Source of the DNA: a virus
Reading direction: 5' to 3' (one strand)
Length of the DNA: 26,035 nucleotides
IMG/VR virus record: IMGVR_UViG_3300007640_000201
Coordinates: 1 to 26,035 of that record
A program made the translations under genes and the position numbers. The notes below the pieces were generated by a model. The model searched no databases. It was not told where the DNA came from and saw only the letters and a program-made list of their open reading frames with translations. Shown here one piece after another: positions 19,858 to 22,243 of this stretch (position 1 is the stretch's first letter; every line of letters begins with the position of its first letter).

Positions 19858-20295
19858 TCAACTTCTTTCTAAAATAGTTTCTAAAGTTATTAATTCTGAT
19901 TTATAATTGGCAATATAAAATTCTATAGTTATTTTTAATTCATTGTTATCAGAATTATCTTCCACATCTACTGATACTAAATCAACTCTTGGTTCATATA
20001 CCTTTATCGTTGCTTCTATTCTGTTTTTAATAATATCTGAAACGAATGGCGAAAAAGGCTCAAACAAAAATTCACGAATTCCAGAATAAATTTCCGGATG
20101 AAAAGGTTTATCAAATTGATTAAGAAAAACTAAATTTCTTACACTTCTTTTGATAGCTTCAACATCATATAAAATTTGAATATCTTTTTTAACAGGATGC
20201 GCAAGAAAGTTTAAATTTAAATCTTTATAAATTTTTAAACTTCTTTCAGATAAATTAGTAGATTGAGCATCTATGTAGGGATTTGAAACTGCCAT
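19858..20295 (-). CDS. gp25: Baseplate wedge subunit gp25 (sheath initiator)
   Basis: At 145 aa (T4 gp25: 132 aa) it has the gp25-like fold pattern: LNFLAHPVKKDIQILYDVEA, IKRSVRNLVFLNQFDKPFHP, SGIREFLFEPFSP and a C-terminal strand-rich part (YEPRVDLVSVDVEDN, ELKITIEFYI). gp25 sits at the junction of wedge and inner ring and nucleates sheath assembly; the conserved Glu in the 'REFLFEP' loop is characteristic of the family. A late promoter TATAAATA lies 18 bp upstream and GTAGGAG is the ribosome-binding site, so gp25 begins the wedge operon gp25-gp6-gp7. Confidence 0.93.
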   Translation of the reverse strand: MAVSNPYIDAQSTNLSERSLKIYKDLNLNFLAHPVKKDIQILYDVEAIKRSVRNLVFLNQFDKPFHPEIYSGIREFLFEPFSPFVSDIIKNRIEATIKVYEPRVDLVSVDVEDNSDNNELKITIEFYIANYKSELITLETILERS

Positions 20296-20324: not shown

Positions 20325-20576
20325 TTACAACCATGTATCTAACATTGTATGTTTATTCAATTCTTCAACTTTATCTTCATAATAAAATTCTTCACCAGTT
20401 TCTCTGTCTATTTCGCCAATAATAATTCCATTAATACAACTGGCCATGAATTCTGCATTTTCATATGACATCGCACGAATCAATCCACCATAACGATTTA
20501 CATTATAAAGGTCTTGAAATACAACTATGTATTGTGTTCTGTTATCTCTTTTTCTTATTCTTCTTTTTGTTGCCAT
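20325..20576 (-). CDS. Conserved-type small protein of unknown function in the spike operon (83 aa)
   Basis: It begins with a strongly basic stretch (MATKRRIRKRDNRTQYIVVF) followed by a small alpha/beta part (DLYNVNRYGGLIRAMSYENA, FMASCINGIIIGEI) and an acidic end. I do not recognise the family. It starts directly at the base after the PAAR gene stop, so it is translated from the same message, and it precedes the gp25 promoter. Its position is consistent with a baseplate or assembly protein; T4 gp53, a wedge protein expected near here, is not otherwise seen, but this protein is much shorter and I see no match. Confidence 0.7.
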   Translation of the reverse strand: MATKRRIRKRDNRTQYIVVFQDLYNVNRYGGLIRAMSYENAEFMASCINGIIIGEIDRETGEEFYYEDKVEELNKHTMLDTWL

Positions 20577-20924
20577 TTAGCCTCCAGCAAATACGTTTCC
20601 TGATCCAGATAATATAACTGCACCACAAGCATATGTATCGCCTTGTCTTCCTATATTTTTTCCATTCGCAAAAACTGTTCCACTAAATGATGCAAGTGGA
20701 GGTGAATGTACTGCACAATCACATGGAAAAGTGTGAGGTTCTACAGCATCACCTGCTCTTACAACACCTATACTATTAGCAAACACGTTACCTGAACCTG
20801 CTAATGTTCCAACTACAATTGGATCTACATCACATGCGCAATTATCTTTTGGGTCAGCATCTCCAACTGCTGGATGAACAGTATTTACTGGTTCCGTTCC
20901 GTCTTTTCTTGCTACTGGTGGCAT
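20577..20924 (-). CDS. PAAR-like spike-tip protein
   Basis: 115 aa, beginning MPPVARKDGTEPVNTVHPAV, with Gly/Ala-rich short strands repeated through the chain (GTLAGSGNVFANSIGVVRAG, FSGTVFANGKNIGRQGD, LSGSGNVFAGG); this is the pattern of PAAR tip proteins (T4 gp5.4 type, 97 aa). PAAR proteins cap the hub spike with a sharp cone held by a metal ion bound by His and Cys. Candidate ligands here are His17, His64, His73, Cys100 and two CxC pairs (Cys29/Cys31, Cys68/Cys70), more than the usual three. Its ATG shares one base with the stop of the cysteine-rich gene upstream (TAATG), which in turn follows the gp5-like hub gene. The tip role is well supported; the use of the extra cysteines is inference. 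Confidence 0.85.
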   Translation of the reverse strand: MPPVARKDGTEPVNTVHPAVGDADPKDNCACDVDPIVVGTLAGSGNVFANSIGVVRAGDAVEPHTFPCDCAVHSPPLASFSGTVFANGKNIGRQGDTYACGAVILSGSGNVFAGG

Positions 20925-21019
20925 TATTTACATTCCAATCCACAAGGATTTACTTCATCACATGTACAATTATCACCGCATTTACAATTTTTACATTTAC
21001 ATTTTGGATTATTACACAT
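20924..21019 (-). CDS. Metallothionein-like cysteine-rich micro-protein (31 aa)
   Basis: A 31-codon gene between the hub and the PAAR gene. Nine of 31 residues are Cys (positions 2, 7, 9, 12, 14, 18, 20, 26, 30), with the core CKCKNCKCGDNCTC; lysines fill many gaps and there are no aromatic residues. Repeated CxC and CxxC spacing is the hallmark of metallothioneins and other small metal-thiolate peptides. It looks translated: AAGGA overlaps the hub stop codon (TAAGGA) and lies 6 bases before the ATG, and its stop overlaps the PAAR start as TAATG. Likely role by context: binding zinc or iron for, or as part of, the metal-containing spike tip (inference). A cytosolic metal scavenger expressed late in infection is an alternative. 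It is not a fragment of either neighbour, being in its own frame with both signals intact. Confidence 0.8.
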   Translation of the reverse strand: MCNNPKCKCKNCKCGDNCTCDEVNPCGLECK

Positions 21020-21028
21020 ATCTTTTCC

Positions 21029-22243
21029 TTAGTTTAGATTAATAATTCCTGCATCCATATCAATTTCTGGACCAGATGTTATTGTTATTTTTCCACTAGC
21101 ATTTGTTGTTTGTGTTGAATTATATGTTTCAGAAACTGCGCCACCAACTGTTTCACTTCTTGTAGAAGAAACATTTGTGGAGTGACTGCTGCTATATGTT
21201 TCTTTTACATAATCTGTAACTTCTTGTTCCATCCACCCTTTAATAATTTCCTTCTTGTTTCCATCGACTTGTATATCCCAATCACCTTTAATGTATGTCT
21301 TACAATTTGAATCAATAGTTAAATTTACATCACCTTTGACATTTATAAAATCTGTTCCTGCAACAATTGTATAATTATTACCAACTATTCTGGTAACTGA
21401 ATTACCATCAGCATCCCATTCTTGAAAAGTGCCAGTACGATGTTTTCTATACATTCGTTCAGCATATGGTGTATCATCTATTTCAACGATATGCCCTGAT
21501 TCTGATTCATACACTCGATTATATGGATATTCAGTCTGTCTTCTTTTATAAGTTGGTGTGCGATCTTCTAAAGTTTCTGGATTCTTTCCGGATGCTTCTT
21601 CTCCCCTTAAAGAAACGTCAAGTGCTTTTGGCTCATTCCAAGATGATGCAGCTGCACTTGTATTGACTGAATCTTTATATGTTCCTGAGAAATCTTCTGT
21701 TCCTGATTTTACTATTCCTTGAGATAATGCTGTAGGAACACCAAGAGTTGCAGCTGCATCTCTTTCTGCGATTTCCTCATGTGGTGTAGTTCTTCCTCTG
21801 GCTAATCGAGAGGTATCTTGTTCACCAACACGAGTTGGATATGGTCCGTAATCAGGAGTATTTTTGTATTTTCCGATCTGAGGATCAGGAGCACTAGGTG
21901 AGTTCGGATCCGAAAATCCTTTTGCAGGATTTGGTCCAGAGGAAGGATATCCTGGAATAGTGCCAATAACAACAGGCTCTTGCATGGATTGAGGATCTCG
22001 CCAGAAACCCATTACCCACATTCCAGGAGTCAAATTGTGGACTGCTCCATATGGAGCAGTTGGAGGAAGAATTACATGAGCCCATGGAAGATCATCAGTG
22101 GCTATTTTTTGAAGATCATCAGTATGATAACCTAAACATCGTACTCGAACACGACCAATTAGATCTGGATCATCTCGATCTTCAACAACACCAATCCACC
22201 AAACAAATCCATCTCGACCCATGAAATAAGAATAGTTGTCCAT
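21029..22243 (-). CDS. gp5: Baseplate central hub / spike protein, gp5-like without lysozyme domain
   Basis: 404 aa. Residues ~10-100 form the gp5 N-terminal OB-fold: FVWWIGVVEDRDDPDLIGRV, RVRCLGYHTDD, DLPWAHVILPPTAP, TPGMWVMGFWRDP and PVVIGTIPG. A long polar linker (about 100-245) replaces the lysozyme domain of T4 gp5 (575 aa), so no muramidase activity is expected. NRVYESESGHIVEIDDTPYA and RKHRTGTFQEWDADGNSVTR (near 242-285) lead into the C-terminal triple-stranded beta-helix with repeats such as VKGDVNLTIDSN and IKGDWDIQVDGN up to about 345, then a Ser/Thr-rich end (MDAGIINLN). The trimer forms the membrane-puncturing spike at the tail tip, capped by the PAAR protein encoded two genes on. 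It is headed by an exact TATAAATA late promoter and GGAG. Confidence 0.9.
   Translation of the reverse strand: MDNYSYFMGRDGFVWWIGVVEDRDDPDLIGRVRVRCLGYHTDDLQKIATDDLPWAHVILPPTAPYGAVHNLTPGMWVMGFWRDPQSMQEPVVIGTIPGYPSSGPNPAKGFSDPNSPSAPDPQIGKYKNTPDYGPYPTRVGEQDTSRLARGRTTPHEEIAERDAAATLGVPTALSQGIVKSGTEDFSGTYKDSVNTSAAASSWNEPKALDVSLRGEEASGKNPETLEDRTPTYKRRQTEYPYNRVYESESGHIVEIDDTPYAERMYRKHRTGTFQEWDADGNSVTRIVGNNYTIVAGTDFINVKGDVNLTIDSNCKTYIKGDWDIQVDGNKKEIIKGWMEQEVTDYVKETYSSSHSTNVSSTRSETVGGAVSETYNSTQTTNASGKITITSGPEIDMDAGIINLN

Follow-up and report, generated by a model that had tools for sequence, protein, structure and literature searches.

A conserved nine-cysteine mini-gene between hub and PAAR in a marine T4-like phage, and its apparently undescribed family of metallothionein-like peptides

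The locus between the hub and PAAR genes

The window analyzed here is the whole 26,035-nucleotide stretch of the IMG/VR record IMGVR_UViG_3300007640_000201 (positions 1-26,035), whose source is a marine T4-like phage. A preliminary description had reported a 31-residue, nine-cysteine open reading frame between the hub and PAAR genes of this window; its coordinates (Table 1) are correct, and the strand, which had been left out, is minus. More specifically, the peptide MCNNPKCKCKNCKCGDNCTCDEVNPCGLECK (as read before the stop codon) contains nine cysteines among its 31 residues (29%), in a pattern that includes C7-x-C9-xx-C12-x-C14, and is devoid of phenylalanine, tryptophan, tyrosine and histidine. 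These are the features that characterize the metallothionein class, namely small size, cysteine richness, CxC and CxxC spacing and few or no aromatic residues. At the 5' end of the gene (...CTAAACTAAGGAAAAGATATG) the TAA stop of the hub overlaps the sequence TAAGGA, which lies 6 nt ahead of the peptide ATG, and at its 3' end (...AAATAATGCC) the peptide stop overlaps the ATG of the PAAR gene as TAATG. Both the ribosome-binding site on the hub stop and the overlap with the PAAR start had been described previously and were found again in the sequence.

Table 1. Coordinates of the peptide gene and its neighbors in the window.
Feature	Position	Strand	Evidence or remark
Cysteine peptide ORF, 31 aa, MCNNPKCKCKNCKCGDNCTCDEVNPCGLECK	20924..21019	minus	Translation, conservation in 14 contigs, family HMM
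Hub stop overlapping the peptide ribosome-binding site, CTAAGGAAAAGAT	21020..21034	minus	Sequence; conserved throughout the close relatives
gp5-like baseplate hub / central spike protein, 404 aa	21029..22243	minus	PF06714, PHROG 430
PAAR spike-tip protein, 115 aa	20577..20924	minus	PF05488; start codon overlaps the peptide stop
83-aa gene	20325..20576	minus	Homolog directly after the hub in sister lineages
gp25 baseplate wedge protein	19858..20295	minus	PF04965, PHROG 261

The identities of the two flanking genes are well defined. The hub protein matches the Gp5_OB domain at 47 bits and the PHROG family annotated as 'baseplate hub subunit and tail lysozyme' with an E value of 3e-76. The PAAR protein scores 40.6 bits against its Pfam family (cut-off 27), and its predicted model (mean pLDDT 75) has the conical PAAR fold, with Foldseek matches to 4jiw, 4jiv and 4ku0 (c1882, VCA0105 and T4 gp5.4). 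Among 21 PAAR sequences H64 is invariant and C70 and H73 are nearly so; by analogy with a PAAR protein that needs its Cys/His-bound zinc to work (PMC10715212), these conserved residues would act as metal ligands. The window protein also possesses two CxC pairs, C29-C31 and C68-C70, which are present in every variant of its clade. Like T4 (gp5 and gp5.4), the window phage has a hub and a PAAR gene, and its PAAR fold matches both gp5.4 and type VI secretion PAAR structures, but it adds a cysteine-rich gene between the two and its PAAR protein carries additional CxC pairs.

The peptide ORF is the only one in the window with at least seven cysteines at a content of at least 25%. Among simulated copies of the window, 300 generated by an order-1 Markov model contained no such ORF and 300 generated by an order-2 model contained two. 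Because simulated windows are almost without ORFs of this kind, the cysteine-rich ORF is not due to chance composition.

Conservation and origin of the peptide and PAAR pair

Relative loci were collected using the PAAR and hub proteins as queries, without the peptide. The ORF is intact in all 14 IMG/VR contigs that hold both the hub end and the PAAR start (full-length hub matches of 72-100%, with one partial match at 64%; PAAR matches of 81-100%). These contigs, like those behind the family counts below, are fragments, several from related samples, and their counts are therefore not independent events. Thirteen of them encode the 31-residue form, in which G15E and N17E are the sole replacements, all nine cysteines are kept, three cysteine codons (14, 20 and 30) vary silently and the stop/start overlap with PAAR is always present. 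The remaining contig (L013, the same as L054) encodes a diverged 21-residue form, MCNNKNCKCHDCKCENCKCLQ, which has seven cysteines and runs into the PAAR start. Absence of the gene, a broken frame or loss of cysteines at kept length in close relatives, any of which would have refuted the preliminary proposal, was looked for and seen in none of the 14 contigs. Likewise, the comparison of synonymous and non-synonymous change that had been suggested gave a pooled pN/pS of 0.07 for the clade (six alleles of a 93-nt gene). The 31-residue, nine-cysteine ORF is a genuine gene, conserved together with its cysteines and placed tightly between hub and PAAR.

Sister lineages with hubs 54-70% identical to that of the window (L048-L052, L056-L059) have a different PAAR gene (38-42% identity), located upstream of the hub. 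In the sisters inspected (L048-L052 and L056) the hub runs directly into a 79-92-aa gene resembling the 83-aa gene of the window, followed by gp25; thus, the cysteine peptide and PAAR of the window clade occupy a site at which the sisters have neither gene. From these sequences, the clade appears to have exchanged its PAAR type, gaining the new PAAR gene and the peptide together as a two-gene insert. The nearest matches of the clade PAAR (61-64%) are PAAR genes from other phages; these lack the cysteine peptide (L014-L020) and have glutaredoxin and RNR-like genes nearby, sometimes also IscU- or IscA-like genes. In these relatives a single cysteine is found at each of the two sites where the clade PAAR has CxC (C29xC31 and C68xC70). 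The gain of CxC is one correlated change and is therefore only suggestive of a tie between peptide and PAAR.

Two further arrangements were observed around PAAR genes. In other phages (L014-L022, L031 and L033), PAAR is grouped with RNR-like, glutaredoxin and 96-aa genes, joined in L017 and L020 by IscU- or IscA-like genes, so that these contigs have a thiol/metal cassette located away from the baseplate genes. A distant T4-like contig (L025:1222-1380) contains a different 52-aa ORF with nine cysteines (MNNCQNCGHICHCGVTC...) three genes upstream of PAAR.

The wider family and its genomic company

The peptide is one of a family of phage proteins, 14-40 aa in length, whose core consensus MC[NE]N[EP]xCKCx[ND]CTCDPCECxxxxPCGC contains nine cysteines. 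The pattern MCNNPxCKC was found in 47 stretches of IMG/VR and, among approximately 85,000 prokaryote genomes, only once, in a Chloroflexi MAG contig (L215). Since this contig shares its gene order with phage counterparts, it may be misbinned phage DNA. The looser pattern MCxxxxCKCxxCxC matches at least 119 stretches, some of them from outside the family. Every cysteine examined in 32 core sequences alternates between TGT and TGC, and the family core exhibits purifying selection with invariant cysteines (pN/pS 0.14), this set, like the wider family, having been picked partly by its cysteine motif. With an HMM of 19 members, none of them starting with MCNNP, the window peptide scores 26.6 bits, whereas shuffles of the peptide with fixed cysteines average 7.4 bits and only 1 of 3000 reaches 26.6. 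Thus, the family match exceeds what cysteine spacing alone provides.

Comparison of the peptide and its relatives with Pfam, PHROGs, NCBIfam and PDB returned no significant family. A tblastn search of INPHARED with the peptide and two relatives gave no match, which says little about cultured phages because BLAST masks such low-complexity queries. A literature search, with subscription papers mostly outside its reach, returned no account of phage metallothioneins or of cysteine peptides beside IscU or PAAR. A family of tiny metallothionein-like proteins is thus widespread across several phage lineages and apparently undescribed. Separate ORFs of 18-19 aa, M(P/S)(E/D)CKCxNCKC(R/G)K..., with four cysteines, were also observed in viral contigs (L087, L114, L117, L119 and L175), adjoining small lysine-rich genes.

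The term metallothionein-like, used in the preliminary description, holds as an analogy and not as homology to a curated metallothionein family. Like the mammalian beta domain and the sea-urchin chain 1qjl, the peptide is small and free of aromatic residues, with nine cysteines, CxC and CxxC spacing and a KCKxxCKC motif. In contrast to metallothioneins, the family is phage-encoded, only 14-40 aa in length and without significant sequence match: the sole phmmer match of the peptide in PDB is 1qjl itself, at a non-significant E value of 0.5, the mammalian beta domain reaches only 3.5-5 bits with the family HMM, inside the range of shuffles, and no curated family in Pfam, NCBIfam or PHROG is matched. 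The likeness is likely of convergent origin. Both its sequence and its genomic context lend good support to the reading as a putative metal-thiolate peptide.

The gene order is hub, peptide, PAAR in group A (the window clade); Grx, 97 aa, 58 aa, PAAR, 43 aa, peptide in group B; IscA, IscU, peptide in group C; and peptide followed after 0.5-1.7 kb by IscU in group C'. Podo-like contigs have the order IscU, a 15-aa MCKCKDCKCNPCKC and the terminase region, and other family members come after Hsp20, nucleotidyltransferase or tail genes. Phage IscU is the commonest neighbor, its NifU_N domain occurring in 26 of 47 family contigs versus 0 of 45 control contigs fetched via random motif matches. In reverse, a search starting from IscU found a cysteine mini-ORF on the same strand at 27 of 80 loci and on the opposite strand at none of the 80; in podo-like contigs this mini-ORF begins between 22 nt ahead of and 2 nt past the point where the IscU match ends. 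Of the 30 contigs of the MCNNP set, 12 contain PAAR, all from groups A and B; the other set has none among its 47 contigs, and the 45 controls have one. At the PAAR loci of group B, the peptide lies approximately 165 nt downstream, one small gene later, in 12 of 18 cases. Thus, two lineages are PAAR-linked, the window clade and group B, and the company of the family is enriched for metal proteins (IscU, IscA in some lineages, and PAAR).

No such ORF accompanies PAAR in seven INPHARED regions, and no cysteine mini-ORF is present in the hub region of Pelagibacter phage Mosig or the IscU region of Phage C48C1. IscU was sought in the window and in 20 contigs of groups A and B, all fragments, and none was found. 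Cysteine-rich frames between gp5 and PAAR genes, a search for which had been suggested beforehand in other marine T4-like phages, are present in the 14 clade contigs and missing beside related PAAR genes elsewhere, the seven INPHARED ones included. PAAR as a general partner of the family is ruled out by the contexts of its members.

Two groups of contigs bear separate description. Podo-like contigs such as L063, L070, L107, L108, L129, L315, L317 and L358 carry an ORF of 14-16 aa, for example MCKCKDCKCNPCKCN, that is found within a few nucleotides of where IscU ends, or after one intervening small gene, and just before or near a terminase gene; these ORFs are possibly the smallest conserved phage genes in these data. 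In L184, L186, L189, L194, L206, L208, L209 and L215, IscA-like and IscU-like genes are followed by a 37-38-aa cysteine peptide and then an acidic gene. T4-like marine phages with Fe-S assembly genes (IscU and an A-type carrier) have been described (PMC5332604), in a text that mentions neither a cysteine-rich peptide nor PAAR. They are the same kind of phage and contain the same IscU genes that neighbor the wider family, but the window contig differs from them in having no IscU.

Candidate functions in infection

By analogy with metallothioneins, the peptide is probably a phage mini-metallothionein, encoded in the structural (late) operon, which would buffer or pass on metal during infection. 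Its nine thiols would most likely fold round a small metal-thiolate cluster, analogous to the Zn3Cys9 cluster in the beta domain of mammalian metallothionein (PMC10243857); the metal bound during infection may be Zn(II), Cu(I) or Fe. While virions are being built, the peptide could then buffer metal locally or donate it to phage metalloproteins. In the window clade PAAR would be its most likely local client, a plausible one because a PAAR protein depends on bound zinc, as noted above. Weighing against the mini-metallothionein reading are the lack of a significant match to any metallothionein family, the position of some members beside Hsp20, nucleotidyltransferase and tail genes without known metal link, and the failure to find IscU in the window or in the searched contigs of its clade.

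A more specific possibility, proposed in the preliminary description, is that the peptide is a chaperone or an extra part of the PAAR tip. As a dedicated metallochaperone it would hand Zn, or Fe, to the PAAR protein of the spike tip, with the additional CxC pairs perhaps mediating the transfer. The overlap of the peptide with PAAR in all 13 contigs of the 31-residue form and in the 21-residue form, the presence of both genes where sister lineages have neither, the restriction of the CxC pairs to the PAAR of the window clade and the second PAAR-linked lineage all speak for this, as does the need of PAAR for Cys/His-bound zinc. Yet most family members do not lie near PAAR, most PAAR genes (among them relatives of the clade PAAR) lack such a neighbor, the CxC change happened only once in evolution, and recombinant PAAR without a helper was found to be about 74% zinc-loaded (PMC10715212). 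PAAR-tip chaperoning is therefore not the general function of the family, since IscU is the commonest partner and most family contigs are without PAAR; such a role is possible in the window clade, and a dedicated metallochaperone is on balance unlikely. Incorporation of the peptide into the virion, as a structural add-on to hub or PAAR at the spike tip, would fit a gene lying between two spike genes. It is nevertheless very unlikely, given that family members of other phages lie far from spike genes and that the 21-residue variant departs from the conserved length of a fitted structural part.

The strong association of the family with IscU would fit a helper of IscU type or a general thiol-redox helper, involved in Fe-S or sulfur handling or in protection against oxidants, for which the PAAR neighbor would be an incidental insertion in the late operon. 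This explanation agrees with the glutaredoxin gene of the group-B cassette, with the adjoining IscA and IscU genes of group C and with the few nucleotides separating peptide and IscU in podo-like contigs, while the failure to find IscU in the window and the 20 fragments of groups A and B, together with CxC-rich spacing that is commoner for metal-thiolate clusters than for redox pairs, leaves it a real but lesser chance. That the peptide has no function at all, being a chance cysteine-rich ORF or a mere translational coupler of hub and PAAR, is suggested by its very short length and lack of a database family. This reading is largely refuted and extremely improbable: cysteines are kept despite codon drift, the family is spread across different phages on the coding strand only, and chance is ruled out by the simulations and the low pN/pS.

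The mini-metallothionein reading may be extended, speculatively, to a dedicated metal-delivery module carried by tailed phages, in which the peptide would load the PAAR tip with Zn or Fe, or deliver Fe or Fe-S via phage IscU, depending on lineage. This extension is rather unlikely at present; if true, metal supply to the virion and to phage enzymes would be under phage control.

A whole class of conserved 14-40-aa phage genes escapes gene finders with a length cut-off as well as searches that mask low-complexity sequence. The company of IscU, IscA and PAAR points to metal handling in infection and bears on the source of the spike-tip ion and on the idea of phages moving host iron. The 31-residue peptide and the 115-residue PAAR protein form a compact pair for direct tests of metal transfer.
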